A stretch of DNA of 64,000 nt from Persephonella marina EX-H1 (GTDB lineage Bacteria; Aquificota; Aquificia; Aquificales; Hydrogenothermaceae): contig NC_012440.1 of the NCBI RefSeq assembly GCF_000021565.1, forward strand, positions 500,672 to 564,671, written 5' to 3'. The notes under the pieces are model-generated. The model had not been told where the DNA came from, did no database searches, and saw only the letters and a program-made list of their open reading frames with translations. Made by a program: the position numbers and the translations under genes. Shown here in pieces: positions 5,715 through 15,278 of the stretch (the first letter of the stretch is position 1; each line of letters starts with the position of its first letter).

Positions 5715-6147
5715 AGAACATATTTACGATTTTGAGGTTTTCAGAGCACTTGTAGAGCTGGAGATTAACAGGATTAAGAGGTATAAGAAAAGTAATACTT
5801 TTTCCATAGCCTTTCTTTATGCACCAAACCTTGCTAAGGAGATTGAGGAGAAAAAACCTAAGGGTCTGGATATCGTATTTAAGATAAAAAGCCATTTAAG
5901 ATCAACAGATGTGATAACACCTGTTGAAGAGGATTTTGTTTTTCTATTCTTCCCTGAAACAGGTAAAAAGGATGTCGAAAAAGCTATAGAGAGGATAAAA
6001 AAAGTTTTTAAAGATAAGGAGATCATTGAAGGTATAGCCTCATATCCTGATGATGGTAAGGATAAGTACCAGCTTTTTAACAAACTTGTTGATATTATGA
6101 ATAAAAAATTAATTCCTGTTATTGAACTTTCTTCAGAAGAGCATTAA
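5707..6147 (+). CDS. Degenerate GGDEF-like domain protein, catalytic motif lost
   Basis: A 146-residue soluble protein whose start overlaps the end of metK by eight bases, implying translational coupling. Its pattern, a helix rich in RIKRYKK, a hydrophobic strand FSIAFLYA, IKSHLRSTDVITPVEEDFVFLFFPETGKKDVEKAIERIKKVF, and a late GIASYPDDG strand, follows the fold of diguanylate cyclase domains (compare R-x-x-D-x-hxR-GGDEF-hhLLPxT, then A-hGhAxYPxDG). The GGDEF signature is replaced by VEEDF, so cyclase activity is not expected. A c-di-GMP- or nucleotide-sensing or purely structural role is possible. The function is unknown; the fold call is my inference. Confidence 0.6.
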   Translation: MSEEHIYDFEVFRALVELEINRIKRYKKSNTFSIAFLYAPNLAKEIEEKKPKGLDIVFKIKSHLRSTDVITPVEEDFVFLFFPETGKKDVEKAIERIKKVFKDKEIIEGIASYPDDGKDKYQLFNKLVDIMNKKLIPVIELSSEEH

Positions 6148-7517
6148 AAAAGTTTACCAGCTACTATATCGTAGGTAGCGTATATAAATATCTCGCTTAA
6201 AGATGGGTGGAAGTATATAAAGTTATGAATGTCCTCAGCTGTATACTCTTCTTTTACTGCCATCTGGATTATATGAATAAGCTCTGAAGCACCTGTTCCT
6301 ACTATAGTTCCACCTATTATCTTCTTGCTCTCTTTTTCAAAAACAAGTCTTACAAAACCTTCAGACTCATGTTCATCCACAGCCTTTTCATTATAGGTAT
6401 AAGGGTAATAACCTGTTACAACTTCAATTCCTTTTTCTTTTGCCTGTTTCTCATTCAGTCCTACAGTTGCTATCTCAAAACCTGAGAACAGAACATATGG
6501 AATGACACTATAGTCAGCTTCAACATCTTTTCCTGTGATATTATCTACAGCAATCTTTGCTTCATAGCTTGCTATATATGCAAGCATAGGGGAGTTAACG
6601 ACATCTCCACAGGCGTATATATTTTTAAAGTTTGTCTGCATCTTTTTATTTACCTTTATAAAACCTCTTTCATCCTTTTGAATTCCTATTGTGTCTATAT
6701 CTGTGTTTGGTTTTCTTCCTATTGATAGAAGTATCTTATCTGCTGTTAACTGGGTTCCATCTGATAGTTTTGCAAAAACTCTGTTATCTTTTATCTCGTA
6801 ACTCTCAAGAGTCGTTTTGAAGTATGTGTTTATTTTCATCTTCTTGAACTTTCTAAGAAGGTATCTTGAGACCTCCTCTGGTATATCAGGCATTGGTAAA
6901 AGTCTGTCCATCAGTTCAACTATATGAACTTTACTTCCGTATGCAGAAAGTATATAACCAAGCTCACACCCGGCAACACCACCGCCAACTATGATTATTT
7001 CCTCAGGAAGACTGTCTGTTCTTTCAAGGAGATCTTCTGTTGTTATAACAAAATTTCCGTCTGGGATTATATTTCCAACGGATACAGGGATAGATCCTGT
7101 GGCTATAAGAATATTTTCCCCTTTTATTACCTCTTTTGACCCATCTTCTTTTATAACCTCTACCTCATTCTGTCCTATAATCCTACCCCTTCCTTTATAA
7201 ACTGGGACTTTCTTTGTTTTTAGGAGCATATTAAGACTTTTTCTGAGGAATGAGATAGCTTTTTCCTTTCCTTCCCATGCCTTTTTAAAGTTTATTGAGA
7301 CATTCTGTATTTCTATGCCGTAATTATCCAGAACATTTAGCTTTTCAATCTGGTGGGCACCTGTCCAGAAATACTTTGTAGGAATACAGGCTCTGTTAAG
7401 ACAGTTTCCACCAACCTTACTTTTTTCAACAATGGCTATATTGAGCTTTTTTCTTAATGCAGTTAAGGTGGCTTCAAAGCCACCTGGACCCATTCCAATG
7501 ATTATTAGATCATACAT
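6144..7517 (-). CDS. Dihydrolipoamide dehydrogenase-family FAD/NAD(P) disulfide oxidoreductase
   Basis: A class I pyridine nucleotide-disulfide oxidoreductase. It shows the FAD-binding start YDLIIIGMGPGGFEA, the redox-active disulfide in GGNCLNRACIPTK, an NAD-binding IIIVGGGVAGCELGYILSAYG near residue 165, the second FAD motif YACGDVV near 300, and the C-terminal active-site FHPSLSE. The sequence NCLNRACIPTK differs from the usual TCLNVGCIPSK. I prefer the ATG at 7517 (MYDLI) because AGGA lies six bases upstream; in-frame ATGs exist at 7523 and 7541. It is the last gene of the pilus operon, and its 3' end overlaps the convergent GGDEF-like gene by four bases. No E2 or lipoyl protein gene is near, so its partner is unknown. 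Confidence 0.85.
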   Translation of the reverse strand: MYDLIIIGMGPGGFEATLTALRKKLNIAIVEKSKVGGNCLNRACIPTKYFWTGAHQIEKLNVLDNYGIEIQNVSINFKKAWEGKEKAISFLRKSLNMLLKTKKVPVYKGRGRIIGQNEVEVIKEDGSKEVIKGENILIATGSIPVSVGNIIPDGNFVITTEDLLERTDSLPEEIIIVGGGVAGCELGYILSAYGSKVHIVELMDRLLPMPDIPEEVSRYLLRKFKKMKINTYFKTTLESYEIKDNRVFAKLSDGTQLTADKILLSIGRKPNTDIDTIGIQKDERGFIKVNKKMQTNFKNIYACGDVVNSPMLAYIASYEAKIAVDNITGKDVEADYSVIPYVLFSGFEIATVGLNEKQAKEKGIEVVTGYYPYTYNEKAVDEHESEGFVRLVFEKESKKIIGGTIVGTGASELIHIIQMAVKEEYTAEDIHNFIYFHPSLSEIFIYATYDIVAGKLF

Positions 7518-7528
7518 ATTCATTCCTG

Positions 7529-8101
7529 CTATGGTGTACATTGATCATCATTATCGCCGATAAACTGGTCAAAAATCACGTATGCACCTACCTCAATCTT
7601 TATATCCTTGTCGTAAAGAACCTCGCTTCCCTCAATAATCAGTTTTACATTATAAGCACCTCTTAAGTTGTTAGTATAGAAATACTCTTTTAGATCCTGA
7701 GCTGCTACAACAAAGCTACACGTTGTTTCTGTTTCTGGCTGAACTGTACATGCTGTAGGATATAGTCTGGCAGCTATCTGTGGAGAAGTTGTATTTGCAG
7801 GGTAATACTCAACTCTATATTTAGTGAATGTAACATCTGATGGGACTATCCCTCCATTTATAGGAACTGATTTAAAAGTTACGTTTACTGTAACATTACT
7901 ACCTGAAATGATATATTCATCACAGATATTATCTCCATTGTAATCCTTTCTGTCTACAATATCGGCTTGAATGTAACTTGGATCTATACTTAAAGTGTCC
8001 ATAAATACAGAGTTTCCAACATCTGACCCAGGACCTGTCCCACATGAGTTCAGTATAAGAGCTGAAGCTAATAAGACTCCACTAACCACCATCTTCCTCA
8101 T
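7529..8101 (-). other. Internal lipoprotein module with its own start signals inside the larger frame
   Basis: At 8101 an in-frame ATG begins a 190-residue segment with a textbook lipoprotein signal ending LNSC. GAGGGTG lies six bases upstream (8108-8114), so it could be translated separately. Its body contains a DxNGDNICDEY segment and ends in DDQCTP. It has no known function that I can name. Together with the complete anchor just before it, this suggests that two adjacent genes lost the stop codon between them. Confidence 0.55.
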
Positions 8102-10927
8102 ATTAAACACCCTCATAGATATTATTGTTAGTATTAACAAAATTCCAAAGAATGAGTAGTCTATATCTGAGCCTAATGAACAACCACCTCCACTTCCTGA
8201 TGTTTCAGGAGGTGTTGTTGAACCTCCTCCGTTATCGGGAGTACTTGTAGTTGTTGACTCACTTCCTATAACAATAGGATCTTCAATTATACCGGTCTGC
8301 GAGTTTAAATCTAGATCACCATTATCAAGAATAGGATATGTAATACTATTTCCTGAAACAATAAAGTTTGATATTTTTATCCAGTTTCCGGAGTTGTTTA
8401 TCTTGTAAACAGCTAAATTTGAGGGGATTGACTGTAAGACAACAGTTATATTTACCGTCTGAGGGGTTGTGCTTCCAGTATTTACTGTAAACGATACAGC
8501 CTTTGAAGGGGTGAAATCTGCTGGCTTACTGTCAAGATACGGTATACTTGACAGCTCAATGAAATCAACAACAGTTCCTATATCTGATAGAACCTTAACC
8601 CCTGTTGCTTCAGCAACCATATTAAGTGTAAATGTGTTTCCTATACTGTCCTCCAATGTCAGTGTTGCTGTGTGTGCTTTTATCTCTGAAGGTATGTATG
8701 AAACTGTGAATTCATAGAACTCACCAGGGTTTACTGTTAAAGGAGTGGTTAATCCTAATATGTAGAAATTGACATTATCAGATATTGAGTAGCTGTTTAT
8801 TGTTATACTATTGGCTGTTGAAAGATTTACAATTCTTACTTTTATATCTTTTTTATCATTTATGAAAACCTTATTAAAGTTTAATGTGGTTATACTGTTA
8901 CCGGATTCATCCTGTAGCTCCCATGAAGCACCTTTTATAACTCCTATTCCCTGAACAAGAATCTCCACCTGCTGGGATGCGTTGTTTGTTATCTGTAGTT
9001 TCATATTGTGAGAACCTGCTGTATTTGGATGGAATATCAGGGTAAGATTAAGTGAAGATCCGGGAATTATATCAAAGGTTGTTCCATCACAGGCTGTTAT
9101 CTCTGAAGGTGGATTTTTAAACTCGTATATATCCGGCATTAAAGATGTACCGGATTCAGTGATACAGTCTATTGACAGAACTCTATCACCTGAGTTTTTG
9201 ATAGATATACTGTATTCTGAGCTCTCATTTTTTATTCCCACTTCACCAAAATCTATTGATAGAGGGTATAGAACTGTTCCATCAGAGTCAAGCAGTGTTA
9301 GCTGTGGCTGACCTATCGTAAACCTCTGACCATAAATGTTTGAACCACATGGTTGTGAGCCTGTTCCACAGGTATAACTGTTAGCCTCTCTGGCATCTTT
9401 CCACAGGGCAATATATTCCTGAGTTTCGGTATTGAAGGACACAACAGGATTTCTCTGGTTAAACGGTCTGGTATTTATTATAAAGTTACTGCCTCTAAGA
9501 CTTCCTTCAGAGTCAACATATTGACCGTATATATCTAAGTTTTCGTTTGATGTTGTGCCGTTTCTACCGTCCTGCCATGCAACGAAAAATCTTTGATTTA
9601 CTGGATCAAACTCAACAAAAGGATCTGTCTGTTTGCTGTTTTCAACGTTAGGATCCTGATTTCCATCACCGTCAGCGTCCTGATAGGAGATCAGTATATT
9701 ACGGCTGTAAGTTCCCACCCCTGAGGAAACTAACTGTCCATAAATCTTTTTGTTGTTATTTTCAGGAACATTCTCCCAGACCACAAGAAATCTTTTTGAT
9801 ACAGGATCAAAAGCTACAGAAGGATTATAAGAAGGGGTTGTCAGACTGTAATCTATGAATGTATGCTGAACCGTTCCTAAAGGAATCTGGGAATACCATA
9901 TGCCGTATATATGTTTTATACCATCTTCAGGATCAGGTTCTATAGATAGGGATGAGTCTATTGTATCTCCAGCGTTACACACCCCATTTGCATCCTGATC
10001 CTGACAGGTACAGGTCAGTTTTGCGATATGTCTTCTTCCTTCATATATTATCATCTGCTCATTGGCCGTGGTATCTATTCCTACAACAGGATTGTCAGTT
10101 TCTGTAAAGAACTCAAATGTGTATATCTCTTCAAATGTTGATTTTGATACAGATATAAGACGTGATCTGTTTGATGATACCGTTCCTACATTTCTGATAG
10201 TATCTACAGACAGGACTGTTAGAGTGCTATCTATAATTGCATAACCTATATATGAGTTATCCCCTACAGAATAGGCGGCTGTTGTCAGTCCAAAACATGT
10301 CTCAGCTGTTATATCATTTTCATCTCTGCTCTCAACAAAAACAAGAAAATATCTGTCATTTACCGGATCATATTTGATATACGGTTTCTGTCTGGATAAA
10401 AGACTCTCACCACCTATAGATGTGTATCCTAAACTGAAACCTGAAGGGGCAGGTATGTTATACCCGGAGCAGTCGTTTACATTTAATGTAGATACATCTA
10501 TGAGATTAAAATATATATATCCTCCTGATGTTGTGCCTCTTGAGTCCTGCCACGCAAAAAGAATATTCTGGTTGTTTGGATTATATGTCACAGTTGGGCT
10601 TGTCTGATTACCGGCAAAGGATGTTATCTGAATTTCATTTCCACATAATGTTCCATCAGATTTTATAAACTGTCCATAAATGTCTGATCCACAGGCTTCT
10701 GTTCCTGTACCGCAGGTGAATTTATTTGAGTTTCTGTCATCTTCCCATAAAACAAACCAGAGATTTTTATCTGGCAGATATACTACAGCTGGTTTTTGCT
10801 GGTTAAACTCCTTTATACTGACAGGGATCTCATCTCCCTTCAGATCTGCATAGGAAAAAAAGGAGAGCGATAAAAATAGAAGAATATTTATAACAGAGAA
10901 AAATCTATAATTTGCGGTAGAAATCAT
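7529..10927 (-). CDS. Large exported protein: repeats, two anchor-type modules, C-terminal sorting signal, fused in frame to a lipoprotein
   Basis: I do not recognise a named gene. From the ATG at 10927 (signal peptide ISTANYRFFSVINILLFLSL) it is about 1132 residues. Residues 40-540 hold at least four repeats of the type P-x-V-x-[YF]-x-P-x(4)-[FY]-x-V-x-W-x-D-x-R followed by IYGQ, probably a beta-propeller. Residues about 555-760 look like two immunoglobulin-like ASPM/SPD2/Hydin ('choice-of-anchor D') domains. Residues about 780-880, ending DNGDLDLNSQTGIIEDP, resemble the 'choice-of-anchor U' module. Then come a Thr/Pro/Gly linker, GGGCSLGSD, a membrane helix and basic residues: a complete C-terminal anchor. 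The frame nevertheless continues into a perfect lipoprotein signal (RKMVVSGVLLASALILNSC) and a 190-residue lipoprotein. It follows pilQ directly, so a surface or adhesin role with the pilus is possible but unproven. Confidence 0.75.
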   Translation of the reverse strand: MISTANYRFFSVINILLFLSLSFFSYADLKGDEIPVSIKEFNQQKPAVVYLPDKNLWFVLWEDDRNSNKFTCGTGTEACGSDIYGQFIKSDGTLCGNEIQITSFAGNQTSPTVTYNPNNQNILFAWQDSRGTTSGGYIYFNLIDVSTLNVNDCSGYNIPAPSGFSLGYTSIGGESLLSRQKPYIKYDPVNDRYFLVFVESRDENDITAETCFGLTTAAYSVGDNSYIGYAIIDSTLTVLSVDTIRNVGTVSSNRSRLISVSKSTFEEIYTFEFFTETDNPVVGIDTTANEQMIIYEGRRHIAKLTCTCQDQDANGVCNAGDTIDSSLSIEPDPEDGIKHIYGIWYSQIPLGTVQHTFIDYSLTTPSYNPSVAFDPVSKRFLVVWENVPENNNKKIYGQLVSSGVGTYSRNILISYQDADGDGNQDPNVENSKQTDPFVEFDPVNQRFFVAWQDGRNGTTSNENLDIYGQYVDSEGSLRGSNFIINTRPFNQRNPVVSFNTETQEYIALWKDAREANSYTCGTGSQPCGSNIYGQRFTIGQPQLTLLDSDGTVLYPLSIDFGEVGIKNESSEYSISIKNSGDRVLSIDCITESGTSLMPDIYEFKNPPSEITACDGTTFDIIPGSSLNLTLIFHPNTAGSHNMKLQITNNASQQVEILVQGIGVIKGASWELQDESGNSITTLNFNKVFINDKKDIKVRIVNLSTANSITINSYSISDNVNFYILGLTTPLTVNPGEFYEFTVSYIPSEIKAHTATLTLEDSIGNTFTLNMVAEATGVKVLSDIGTVVDFIELSSIPYLDSKPADFTPSKAVSFTVNTGSTTPQTVNITVVLQSIPSNLAVYKINNSGNWIKISNFIVSGNSITYPILDNGDLDLNSQTGIIEDPIVIGSESTTTSTPDNGGGSTTPPETSGSGGGCSLGSDIDYSFFGILLILTIISMRVFNMRKMVVSGVLLASALILNSCGTGPGSDVGNSVFMDTLSIDPSYIQADIVDRKDYNGDNICDEYIISGSNVTVNVTFKSVPINGGIVPSDVTFTKYRVEYYPANTTSPQIAARLYPTACTVQPETETTCSFVVAAQDLKEYFYTNNLRGAYNVKLIIEGSEVLYDKDIKIEVGAYVIFDQFIGDNDDQCTP

Positions 10928-10943
10928 TATCCCGATCCTCCCA

Positions 10944-12770
10944 TTACTCATATATTATCTTTGGTGTTATAAATATTAACAGTTCTTTGTTTGTTGTATT
11001 TATCCCTTTGTTCTTGAAAAGCCATCCGAAGAGCGGAACATTTCTAAGACCTGGAACACCGTTTTCAGTTTCCTGTTCTGTTTTTTCAAGTATTCCACCG
11101 ATAACTATTGTTGTACCGTCTTTAGCTATAACCTTACTTGTTATACTTTTTGTGTTTATAGGTGGCTGTCCGTTTACAGCTCTTCCAAAATCAGGAACGT
11201 CCTGGGTAAGCTCTATGTTCATTATTATATTTCCGTCAAGTGTTGTTCTCGGGATAACATTAAGTTTTAAAAGGGCTTTTTTGAACTGAACCCTTGCTAT
11301 AGCTGCACCACCTGCAGCACCAAATGTTGAGTAAGGAACCTCAATACCCTGTGATATCTCCGCACCTTCACCATCTATAGTAATAACCTTAGGTCTTGAT
11401 AAAATCCTTGATTTTCCTATCTGCTCAAGAGCTGAAAGCTGGATATCAAGGCTTGTTGTCAGTCCTCTAACAATACCAATAGACATTGAGGCACCTTTTC
11501 CAACATCAACATTTCCAGCAGGAAAGTCAAACATATATCCTGTTGCTGTTCCTGTTGTTACTCCATATCCGATATTTCCTGCACCACCAGATGCTGCAAA
11601 TCCCCACTGAATACCAAGATCCCTTTTATAACTTGATTCTATCTGGACTATACGGGCTTCAATAGCGATCTGGTATGGTCTTTTTAACAGAACCTCGGAA
11701 AAATCTTTATAAATCTTATCTATAACTTCAGGAACATCAGTTATACACACCTTTGGAAGAGATGTAATTATATTCTTTTCCTTTTCTGTTGCATATGATG
11801 ATATTGTACTTCCACCTGTAGTTCCACCTGTTCCACCTGTTGTCTGCTTTTCAACCCCAAGGGCTTTTGATATCTCTTTTGATTTGTATATGACAGATCC
11901 GTACTTTGTGAGATAGCTTTCTTTTATTGTTATAAGAAGTTCTGCAGGTTCGAGGGCTCTAACATAGTAACATTTTGTTTTTATATCTATCTTCTGAGCT
12001 TTTGCTATTATTTTGCTTATCTTTGATATATTTGATTTTAACTCTATTACAGTAAGTTTGCCTGTTTTTTTGTTGTATTTGTATCTTCCGTAAGATGAGA
12101 GATTTTCAACAAGCTCGTCCTCTATCTCTTTAAAATCTTTGTAAGGTATCTCAACCTCTTTTTTTATCAGAAGCGATTCTATCTCTGCCCTTTTTGTTCT
12201 TATTTTTTTAAGTTCTTCTTCTCTTTCTTCTTCAAGCCTTGCTAATTTTTCTGCTTCTCTCTGTAGAGGTTTTTTGTACTCCTCAACCAACTGTTTTATC
12301 TTCTGAACATTCTCCTTCGTGTCCCTTACGTATATTGCGTTACTTGTTTTGTATACCTTTATCTCACCTGTAGGTGAGATATTTCCCTCAACAAGTTCAA
12401 CAAAACTCTCAAATATCTCTTTACCAAGGTACTTTGTTATAACAGGGGATACTGTTATTAGTGCTTCTTCTGCAGGTTTTATTATATAAAGGTTTCCTTC
12501 TCTGACATATGTAAGACCGTTTTCTTTTAATGCGAGCCTGAACAGAGTTTCTATAGATGTTGGTTTTCTTATTGAAAGATACACCGCATTGTCTTTATTC
12601 TTTAGGGCTTCTTTATCCCATACTATATTTTTATTTGATAGTTTTGAAACAACATCTATAAAAGTGCTCAGTTTCGCACCGTAGAACTCTGCGGTCACCC
12701 TCTGCTGAGCGAAGGATTTTAATGTTAAAACCATCATTAAGATCAGTATTGAAAAAGTTATCTTTCTCAT
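10944..12770 (-). CDS. pilQ: Type IV pilus secretin PilQ
   Basis: PilQ forms the outer-membrane pore through which the pilus passes. The 608-residue protein has a signal peptide (ITFSILILMMVLTLKSFA), an N-terminal STN/N0 domain near 25-100, a long charged coiled-coil insert near 170-215 (REAEKLARLEEEREEELKK), a Gly/Thr-rich linker near 310, and a C-terminal secretin domain whose last part carries the family signature GVPGLRNVPLFGWLFKNK and ends KELLIFITPKIIYE. The amidase-N-terminal (AMIN) domains of proteobacterial PilQ are not evident. It is the last structural gene of pilM-N-O-P-Q, three bases after the pilP-like gene. Confidence 0.92.
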   Translation of the reverse strand: MRKITFSILILMMVLTLKSFAQQRVTAEFYGAKLSTFIDVVSKLSNKNIVWDKEALKNKDNAVYLSIRKPTSIETLFRLALKENGLTYVREGNLYIIKPAEEALITVSPVITKYLGKEIFESFVELVEGNISPTGEIKVYKTSNAIYVRDTKENVQKIKQLVEEYKKPLQREAEKLARLEEEREEELKKIRTKRAEIESLLIKKEVEIPYKDFKEIEDELVENLSSYGRYKYNKKTGKLTVIELKSNISKISKIIAKAQKIDIKTKCYYVRALEPAELLITIKESYLTKYGSVIYKSKEISKALGVEKQTTGGTGGTTGGSTISSYATEKEKNIITSLPKVCITDVPEVIDKIYKDFSEVLLKRPYQIAIEARIVQIESSYKRDLGIQWGFAASGGAGNIGYGVTTGTATGYMFDFPAGNVDVGKGASMSIGIVRGLTTSLDIQLSALEQIGKSRILSRPKVITIDGEGAEISQGIEVPYSTFGAAGGAAIARVQFKKALLKLNVIPRTTLDGNIIMNIELTQDVPDFGRAVNGQPPINTKSITSKVIAKDGTTIVIGGILEKTEQETENGVPGLRNVPLFGWLFKNKGINTTNKELLIFITPKIIYE

Positions 12771-12773
12771 CTT

Positions 12774-13019
12774 CTACTCCCCTGTTATGTTAAGATCATC
12801 TTTTGATATACCGAGACTGCTTTCTAAAACCTCTTCAGGATCTTTTTCTGTTCTTATCAGTTTAGCACCTTCAGGTGTTTCAATAACTATATACTTATTT
12901 CCCCTTTCGTCTTTTATGTACCCGACTGTGTTTTCCATACCGGTAAATATATCCTCCTGTGAATACGAGGTATAAGCAAATAAAAGACCTGTAATTATCA
13001 AAGCTGTTATTTTTCCCAT
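12774..13019 (-). CDS. Small exported PilP-like protein in the pilus operon
   Basis: An 81-residue protein with an N-terminal signal peptide (KITALIITGLLFAYTSYS) and a short mature part with the strand-like segment GNKYIVIETPEGAKLI. By position between pilO and pilQ it takes the place of pilP, the periplasmic link between the inner-membrane PilN/PilO complex and the secretin. Ordinary PilP proteins are about twice as long, so it is either a minimal PilP or an unrelated periplasmic factor. The assignment rests on synteny and export signal only. Confidence 0.6.
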   Translation of the reverse strand: MGKITALIITGLLFAYTSYSQEDIFTGMENTVGYIKDERGNKYIVIETPEGAKLIRTEKDPEEVLESSLGISKDDLNITGE

Positions 13020-13020
13020 T

Positions 13021-13713
13021 CTATTTTCCCTCAGGTAAGTAGTAGGTTGAGACCACCATACTTATCTGCAACATATTTGCTGGCTGTTTTTTCTTTCCTG
13101 TCTTCTTAGCCCTTTCTATCACAACTTTGTCTATTCTTAAATACCTTTCGCTTTTTGAAAGATTTTTGATAAATCTTATAAGTTCTGAAACCTCACCTAC
13201 CATATCCAGCGAGATAACTATTCTTTTCATATTTACAGCTGATTTGACCTTTTTCCCTTTTGATGGTGAGAGTATCTCAAGTCTGTCTTCAAGCTTGTTG
13301 TATCTGAGGAAAATATCCTCAGTTTTTGAAACCTTAAAGCTGTTTAGAGTCATCTTTGATCTGAATACAGATGTGGATATGAATGAAAGTATGTACTGTA
13401 TATCCTCCTGTGGTGGAACTATATCTTTCAGCCTTTCAAGCTGTTTATTAAGCTGCTCTATCTCCTTTTGAACCATTACATACTTTTCTTCTAATTTTTT
13501 TCTTATCTCAGGTCTTGCAGCCCTTTTAAGTCTTTCTACCTGTAGCTGTAAGGACTGAACCTCATCCTGAAGGTTCTTCTTTTCAGTAAGTTTACTTTCT
13601 ATCATTACCATATATATTCCATACAGTAATAGGACAGAGAAAAGGACTATCACCAGTATTTTCTGCCATTCTGGAAGCTCAGCCCACTGGGCTTTTAAAG
13701 ATTCTAAATTCAA
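13021..13713 (-). CDS. pilO: Type IV pilus inner-membrane assembly protein PilO
   Basis: A 230-residue bitopic protein: a short cytoplasmic start (LESLKAQWAELPEWQK), one membrane helix (ILVIVLFSVLLLYGIYMVM), a coiled coil (KNLQDEVQSLQLQVERLKR and the following residues) and a periplasmic ferredoxin-like domain with LKDIVPPQEDIQYILSFIS. These are the PilO features. PilO pairs with PilN to connect the cytoplasmic PilM ring to PilP and PilQ. The start appears to be TTG at 13713, with GGAGGG upstream. It is 19 bases from pilN and almost abuts the pilP-like gene. Confidence 0.88.
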   Translation of the reverse strand: MNLESLKAQWAELPEWQKILVIVLFSVLLLYGIYMVMIESKLTEKKNLQDEVQSLQLQVERLKRAARPEIRKKLEEKYVMVQKEIEQLNKQLERLKDIVPPQEDIQYILSFISTSVFRSKMTLNSFKVSKTEDIFLRYNKLEDRLEILSPSKGKKVKSAVNMKRIVISLDMVGEVSELIRFIKNLSKSERYLRIDKVVIERAKKTGKKKQPANMLQISMVVSTYYLPEGK

Positions 13714-13732
13714 AACATGAACCCTCCAGTTA

Positions 13733-14335
13733 TTATTCCTTCTTCTCTTTTTCAGCTACCTGCCATTTCCCCATATTAAAACTAAAGGAGTAGTAACTAA
13801 CGTTTTTCCCGGCTTCCCGTGCTGTAGATTTAAACTTCAGGTCTGTATAGTATTTAGAAAGATTATTGTAAAACTCAGATATAAACCTTGGGTTGAATGT
13901 AAATCCTGACAGGTTAGATCTTGATCTTGTGATCTCCAGTCTGCTCAGCCATATCCCATCAGGCATACTTGTTGCTATTGATGTAATCATAGGAATAAAG
14001 TCTGTTTTCTCACTTGAGAGCTTCTCAAAGATCGCCATCTTCAGCTTGGTCTCTTCTTTTAGTTTCTCAGCCTCTGCAACTTTTTTCTTGAGCCTTCTTA
14101 TCTCCTGCTCTATATCTTTATATCTGGCCCTTTCTTCAGCAAGTCTCTGTTTTTTCTCCTGAAGTTTGCTTACCGTTACGTTGAGATATGTGAGGTATAA
14201 AAGCTCACCTGCTATAAGTATTACAGGTATTCCTATGTACAGAACCGTTTTTGTTTTTAAAAACTCTATTCCTATCTTTCTACGTTCAAGCTTCTTTTTA
14301 ACCTTCTCAGGATTAAGATTTATCTTAATCATCAT
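13733..14335 (-). CDS. pilN: Type IV pilus assembly protein PilN
   Basis: About 200 residues: the conserved cytoplasmic N-terminus IKINLNPEKVKKK, which PilN inserts into PilM, then a membrane helix (TVLYIGIPVILIAGELLYLTYL), a coiled coil and a periplasmic domain including SIATSMPDGIWLSRLEI, the common PilN segment. The start overlaps the end of pilM. I take ATG 14335, four to five bases after GGAGA; TTG 14338 and ATG 14332 are possible. It forms the inner-membrane alignment complex with PilO. Confidence 0.9.
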   Translation of the reverse strand: MMIKINLNPEKVKKKLERRKIGIEFLKTKTVLYIGIPVILIAGELLYLTYLNVTVSKLQEKKQRLAEERARYKDIEQEIRRLKKKVAEAEKLKEETKLKMAIFEKLSSEKTDFIPMITSIATSMPDGIWLSRLEITRSRSNLSGFTFNPRFISEFYNNLSKYYTDLKFKSTAREAGKNVSYYSFSFNMGKWQVAEKEKKE

Positions 14336-15278
14336 CAAATCTCCTGTATGCTAATCCAAAGGGAACATTAAAAACACTCATGGATGTGCTTCCTTCAAGT
14401 TTTATATCAAGTGCAGTTATAGGCTCAAGCTCTACAAGAGTAAACCTTGTTGTAAATTTAAGCTGCATGTAAGCCTGTATCTCAGGAAATTTTCCTGATA
14501 ACCCCGATATATAGATAACTTTCGGCTCATTTATAGTGAGGAAGAAGTAGTTTATCTCGTTTATCAGCCTGTCAACAACATTCTCTTTTTCGTCAGGATT
14601 CATCTCCTCGTATCTTCTTGCATCAAAATTTAAGGTCTGAACTATGATATTATTGTGGAAAAACATAAGGTATGATTCGTTATAATCAAGGTGAATTATA
14701 CATATGTTACTTTCTTCCTTGAGTTTTGGATCTTTTTCCTTTCTCAGCTCAGCGAGATTTAAAAGGGCTATCCCCTCTGAATCTATAATATCTGCCTCCA
14801 TTCCTGCATAGCCCAGTATCTCCTGAACATTCTCTATATCCTCAATTTTTGAGATAACAACTATAACAGTCAGCATATCTTTATCTTCGCTGATTATATC
14901 GTAATCGTAGATGGTTTTCCCTTTTAAGCTCTTTATATCTTCCCTTATGTTCCACTCTACAGCTTCTTCTATCTCCTTAGGGGACATTTTTGGAAGTTTT
15001 ATAGTTTTGAACAGAGTTGAGCTTATTGGAATACTTACAACAACATTTTTGACATGAATGTCTCTCTTTTCTAACTCTTCTTTTAAAAGGTGTCCGGATT
15101 CCTCTTTATCTTCAAGAATTGATAGTTCAAAAGGCATTATAGGAATTGAGAAATGTCCTGCGGTTTTTTCAAGGACTGCCACCCGGGCAAAATTTTTATC
15201 CAGCTGGATTCCTACGCTTATCTTTTCCCTCTGGAACAGATTCTGAAAGGGTTTTAAAACTGTTTCTGAAATATTCAT
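14325..15278 (-). CDS. pilM: Type IV pilus assembly ATPase-like protein PilM
   Basis: A 317-residue cytoplasmic protein of the actin/FtsA-like fold. The segments VSIPISSTLFKTIKLPKMSPKEIEEAVEWNIRE and DIIDSEGIALLNLAEL are characteristic of PilM. It binds the N-terminal tail of PilN; that tail is present in the next gene. It begins the pilus operon; a palindrome and a weak promoter lie in the 60 bases upstream. The expected pilin and motor genes (pilA, pilB, pilT, pilC) are not in this window. Confidence 0.9.
   Translation of the reverse strand: MNISETVLKPFQNLFQREKISVGIQLDKNFARVAVLEKTAGHFSIPIMPFELSILEDKEESGHLLKEELEKRDIHVKNVVVSIPISSTLFKTIKLPKMSPKEIEEAVEWNIREDIKSLKGKTIYDYDIISEDKDMLTVIVVISKIEDIENVQEILGYAGMEADIIDSEGIALLNLAELRKEKDPKLKEESNICIIHLDYNESYLMFFHNNIIVQTLNFDARRYEEMNPDEKENVVDRLINEINYFFLTINEPKVIYISGLSGKFPEIQAYMQLKFTTRFTLVELEPITALDIKLEGSTSMSVFNVPFGLAYRRFDDD

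Follow-up and report, generated by a model that had tools for sequence, protein, structure and literature searches.

In the Bradyrhizobium fbcH cytochrome b/c1 polyprotein, a bacterial fusion carries a signal sequence in its interior, and once exported the chain is split into two proteins of the envelope. The cut is made by signal peptidase I, and the polyprotein has no C-terminal sorting tag. Cleavage of MYXO-CTERM tails by the myxosortase MrtX depends on the Cys, in E. coli too (PMC11980579). MXAN_5598 of Myxococcus xanthus carries an internal MYXO-CTERM, possibly as the result of a gene fusion, and its N-terminal part is proposed to be processed and anchored (PMC11980579). We looked in the literature for polyproteins of bacteria that carry a lipoprotein signal internally and found no paper on point.

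The locus described here lies in a 64,000-nucleotide stretch of the Persephonella marina EX-H1 genome (the window), to which all coordinates refer unless a contig is named. Positions 7529 to 10927, entirely on the minus strand, form a single open frame that encodes a surface protein and a lipoprotein with no stop between them. The first ATG of this frame is at 10951 (minus strand), which gives 1140 codons and a stop at 7529. The ATG at 10927, which follows GGGAGGATC and sits 17 bases past the pilQ stop, is more likely the start (1132 aa), and the original prediction also began the gene there. Residue numbers below follow the 1140-aa reading. The pilQ secretin gene (10944 to 12770) is directly upstream, preceded by pilM, pilN, and pilO-like genes and a small gene in the PilP position (12774 to 15278; pilM and the PilP position were assigned by inspection). 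The end of the fused gene is overlapped by a gene for a pyridine nucleotide-disulphide oxidoreductase of the lipoamide dehydrogenase type (6144 to 7541). These neighbors are on the minus strand as well.

The surface-protein half starts with a signal peptide that runs to Ala35 (10847 to 10927), with the cut placed by inspection between SYA and D. This N terminus is of the signal peptidase I type; in the other fused proteins, and in many relatives without the fusion, an N-terminal lipobox occupies that place. Residues about 36 to 547 (9311 to 10846) form a β-propeller-like domain, as judged from AlphaFold2, Foldseek, and relatives. It carries WxDxR...DIYGQ repeats and is the part of the surface protein that is conserved across phyla. 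Foldseek matched it to sialidase propellers, but at an identity of just 8 to 9%, and we do not claim a sialidase function. Two ASH/choice-of-anchor-D Ig-like domains follow (residues about 560 to 785, 8597 to 9274; domain models and AlphaFold2), and then a choice-of-anchor U domain (residues 815 to 896, 8264 to 8509; 46.3 bits, cut-off 32). The half ends in the Gly-rich signature SGSGGGC, followed by SLG, with Cys924 (8180 to 8197), and in a hydrophobic helix (residues 932 to 946, 8114 to 8158). The next element is a basic loop, RVFNMRKM (residues 947 to 954, 8090 to 8113), recognized from the sequence and from comparison of junctions. A second hydrophobic stretch (residues 955 to 969, 8045 to 8089) runs up to Cys970 of the lipobox LNSC (Cys codon 8042 to 8044), with VVSGVLLASALI lying between the basic loop and LNSC. 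The mature lipoprotein of 171 aa extends to residue 1140 (7532 to 8044). It has homologues, and AlphaFold2 predicts it confidently as a β-sandwich (pLDDT 86).

The junction places two signals back to back. The Gly-rich motif with its invariant Cys, the helix, and the basic cluster make up a Cys-type CTERM signal. The basic n-region, the hydrophobic stretch, and LNSC make up a bacterial lipoprotein signal, and the RVFNMRKM loop appears to double as the cytoplasmic end of the first signal and the n-region of the second. The CTERM-like signal is not at the very C terminus, and the lipoprotein continues in frame. This anatomy, with a tail that runs stop-free into a lipoprotein signal, had been described in the original prediction and is confirmed. 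No named CTERM model matches the tail above its cut-off; for JDVT-CTERM (NF033191), the excised tail reached 14.2 bits versus a curated cut-off of 27. The lipo-invert model NF058595 was also rejected: with a cut-off of 37, it gave about 15 bits in the whole fused protein of one relative (G001, below) and 19.7 in a genome scan. No match to it exceeded the cut-off in any of 61 genomes, and weak matches occurred in all 14 control genomes. Stand-alone CTERM tails from within the family, such as GGGCSLSKNVDYS, GGGCSLSKNVDYSYF, and GGGCSLKKDTDYSLI, do align with the fused tails; these stand-alone tails end within about 1 to 15 residues of the first basic residues. A second Cys-type CTERM tail in P. 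marina belongs to a probable subtilase (L173:1-1609, genome C2 about 775610). It ends GCRLSSGSDFGMLTAYILLVISMILRRKIRRDG and is followed by a stop.

The whole fused protein was used to search 61 relatives, and the lipoprotein family and the propeller domain were each used to search 136 Aquificota genomes. The propeller protein was present in four Aquificota genomes, in all four at the pilQ locus next to the lipoprotein. Three heat-loving genera have one stop-free frame, and none of the three is broken: P. marina (G000, 1140 residues), G001 (JALVEZ010000034.1, 1581 residues), and G004 (JALTUV010000034.1, 2178 residues). G001 and G004 are independently assembled genomes of other Hydrogenothermaceae genera. 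The contig of the G001 fused gene also contains repeated CRNALNQAGQYK and VAMPLIKRDNTS frames (L040:3161-3738), probably a CRISPR array. The number of choice-of-anchor-D stretches that pass the model differs strongly, with 2 in P. marina, 6 in G001 and G013, and 12 in G004, which suggests that the surface protein may have a stalk of variable length.

The junctions of P. marina (CSLGSDIDYSFFGILLILTIISMRVFNMRKMVVSGVLLASALILNSC), G001 (CSLSKNIDYSLLLMGIIPIGFLVIRRVKMKKAVFGLLIVSIIFLNGC), and G004 (CNMGGSNNGVLILTLLAISLALIRRLKTGYIVILLVIPIISAC) share one layout. The CTERM Cys is followed by a helix, by a loop that holds three to five basic residues, and by a second hydrophobic stretch that leads to the lipobox Cys. 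The two Cys are 46, 46, and 42 residues apart, respectively. Across 11 relatives, fused and stand-alone, the lipobox Cys never varies; together with the stop-free junction shared by three genera, this makes the arrangement more than a chance one. AlphaFold2 predicts both hydrophobic stretches as helices. This prediction would also suit a stable, unprocessed inner-membrane protein in which two helices join two outside domains. However, a plain hairpin would have no need of the lipobox Cys, the CTERM Cys, and the Gly run, which every one of the three fused genes retains, and the separate genes of other genomes give two proteins anchored apart. We consider such an uncut protein improbable.

The original prediction had allowed that the stop between two genes was lost. 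Had P. marina lost the stop by accident, or were its base calls in error and the genes truly separate, an old gene border would be expected, and the -1 frame does contain a TAA just ahead of the internal ATG in P. marina (8102 to 8110) and in G001 (L040). Perhaps this TAA is a relic of such a border. However, the G004 -1 frame has no nearby stop, and the G001 and G004 frames, from two independent assemblies of other genera, pass through the junction without any stop equivalent to one near 8101. Moreover, the three fused proteins form one clade in the surface-protein tree (96/98). A recent accident is therefore contradicted, and we give it very little probability; the fusion is old and has been kept. 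A programmed -1 frameshift at the junction was rejected too, since no slippery site was seen and the TAA is not common to G004.

In the PilQ tree, the hosts of the fused genes are scattered among species that lack the surface half. Because the surface-protein tree groups the fused proteins, the sequences are most simply explained by a single origin of the fusion, followed by loss or by passing on. In G013, the order is pilQ, lipoprotein, surface protein, as two genes, and the surface protein ends normally at ...GGGGCSMGRGGGLDFGWFIVTLLGIFARMTRRVQI. Seven other genomes compared from the family (G002, G011, G012, G014, G017, G024, and G110) carry the lipoprotein gene after pilQ without a surface-protein partner.

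The same neighborhood extends beyond the Aquificota. In Nitrospira, other Nitrospirota, and Geobacter, a large propeller/Ig surface protein is encoded near pilQ, with a small lipoprotein gene between the two (L054, L055, L060, L062, L077, L078, L079, and L081). The Geobacter and Nitrospirota lipoprotein is homologous to that of the Aquificota. Profile comparison gave 99.3% with signal peptides and 98.5% (E 3e-15) with the mature parts alone, whereas shuffled or reversed controls did not exceed 0.8%. A Pfam search for the lipoprotein family returned no match, and a PDB search with the mature lipoprotein gave generic β-sandwich matches, none at an E of 0.001 or below. G013, Geobacter, and Nitrospirota carry the halves as separate neighboring genes, and elsewhere the lipoprotein occurs alone; therefore, each half works as a protein of its own. 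The shared pilQ setting and the lipoprotein homology across phyla indicate that the two proteins, common to Aquificota, Geobacter, and Nitrospirota, are long-standing partners of the pilus/secretin locus. We infer their role there from position only. Both may belong to the type IV pilus/secretin envelope complex as a component that has yet to be described.

A further proposal in the original prediction was that one frame yields a long and a short product. In P. marina, a possible internal start, an in-frame ATG (8099 to 8101), has the SD-like GAGGGTG (8108 to 8114) six bases upstream, exactly as had been noted. We scored SD matches as duplex energies, assuming the canonical anti-SD sequence; the median was -7.2 for real starts and -2.7 for internal ATGs. 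The P. marina junction ATG scored -6.4, which is within the range of real starts and in the top 6% of internal ATGs. The G001 junction ATG, with AGGAG, scored -8.5 (top 2.4%). With the amino acids fixed, the SD match was stronger than with random synonymous codons (P 0.027 in P. marina and 0.094 in G001), an excess that is suggestive only. These observations favor two starts in one frame, with ATG 8101 also giving a short lipoprotein and the long product keeping or losing its lipoprotein part. However, near its junction G004 has neither an ATG nor a GTG, its TTG there lacks an SD and scores +1.4, and its sole strong SD-ATG is upstream, inside the CNMG motif, yet the frame and the lipobox are kept. 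A start codon with an SD at the junction is thus found in two of the three fused genes, and the proposal holds as a possibility in P. marina and G001 and fails in G004. The AGG and AGA Arg codons of the required basic loop also resemble an SD on their own, and two starts would leave the persistence of the fused frame unexplained. We regard this explanation as rather unlikely, though less so than the two considered above. Since the frame and lipobox persist in G004 although a usable start is missing there, the mechanism that accounts for all three genes most simply is cleavage of a single chain. Cutting and an internal start may both be in use in P. marina and G001.

Genes for the lipoprotein enzymes Lgt (196 bits) and LspA (132 bits) are present in P. 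marina. We found one CPBP-family protease (L051:1474-1977, minus strand), which matches CPBP/Rce1 at 55.8 bits versus a cut-off of 22.4. Its best NCBIfam matches are myxosortases, namely MrtS (66 bits, cut-off 130) and Mrt_core (64 bits, cut-off 100), and it stays below the cut-offs of Mrt_core and of all named Mrt families. Proteins like it occur across Hydrogenothermaceae, and it is a candidate for a new Mrt family that would act on GGCSL tails.

The fused gene looks like a rare bacterial sort of polyprotein rather than the product of a lost stop codon, and we hold with moderate confidence that the conserved in-frame fusion makes one. Cleavage of such a chain by the lipoprotein pathway, a reading absent from the original prediction, would be the best explanation of all three fused genes. 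An exported-type surface protein, with propeller, Ig, and choice-of-anchor U domains and a Cys CTERM tail, is joined to a complete prolipoprotein. In our model, the chain would be exported by Sec. The CTERM helix would come to rest in the inner membrane with the short basic loop left in the cytoplasm, and the second helix would return outward as the lipoprotein signal, giving a two-helix hairpin. Lgt would lipidate the internal lipobox Cys, and LspA would cut ahead of it to free the pilQ-linked lipoprotein. The candidate myxosortase-like CPBP protease would cut beside the CTERM Cys to leave the surface protein on its own anchor, and the leftover hairpin would be discarded. The outcome would be equal amounts of two type IV pilus/secretin envelope partners, separately anchored. 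This detailed scheme, in which the hairpin linker is both sorting tag and lipoprotein signal and two different lipid-linked processing systems, CPBP and LspA, cut it at its two ends so that both partners carry their own lipid anchor, is more tentative, and we rate it as possible, somewhat short of even.

Several lines argue for the polyprotein: the frame fused in three genera with its kept lipobox Cys, basic loop, and Cys spacing; the match of its tails to stand-alone CTERM tails; the genes for Lgt, LspA, and one myxosortase-type CPBP protease; the processing proposed for internal CTERM signals in Myxococcus (PMC11980579); the separate coding of the halves elsewhere; and the G004 junction with no usable internal start. 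Against it, the CPBP protease is below all named myxosortase cut-offs, and just three fused genes are known. Also against it, the SD-like site and ATG in P. marina and G001 could yield the lipoprotein separately. If the polyprotein reading is true, then lipoprotein maturation and CTERM sorting can both act in mid-chain, LspA has a natural substrate in which it must cut an internal signal, and a single frame can supply bacteria, through a polyprotein, with two anchored surface proteins.

Each known system shares part of this arrangement. Geobacter and Nitrospirota have the homologous surface protein and lipoprotein beside pilQ, but as separate genes with the lipoprotein first. The JDVT-CTERM, Synerg-CTERM, and MYXO-CTERM systems with their Mrt (CPBP) proteases have the same Gly-rich stretch, invariant Cys, helix, and basic end, and a CPBP protease in the genome, whereas the P. 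marina tail and CPBP protein are below the cut-offs and the signal is internal. Unlike fbcH, the P. marina fusion has a lipobox and a CTERM. MXAN_5598 is the closest precedent, with a large adhesin-like half, a Cys CTERM signal in mid-frame, and then a second envelope protein. However, the P. marina tail is not of the MYXO-CTERM type, and the second half of MXAN_5598 is a β-barrel/OmpA protein, whereas in P. marina that position is taken by a lipoprotein that brings its own signal and lipobox. Therefore, the P. marina gene has anchoring signals on both sides of the junction.
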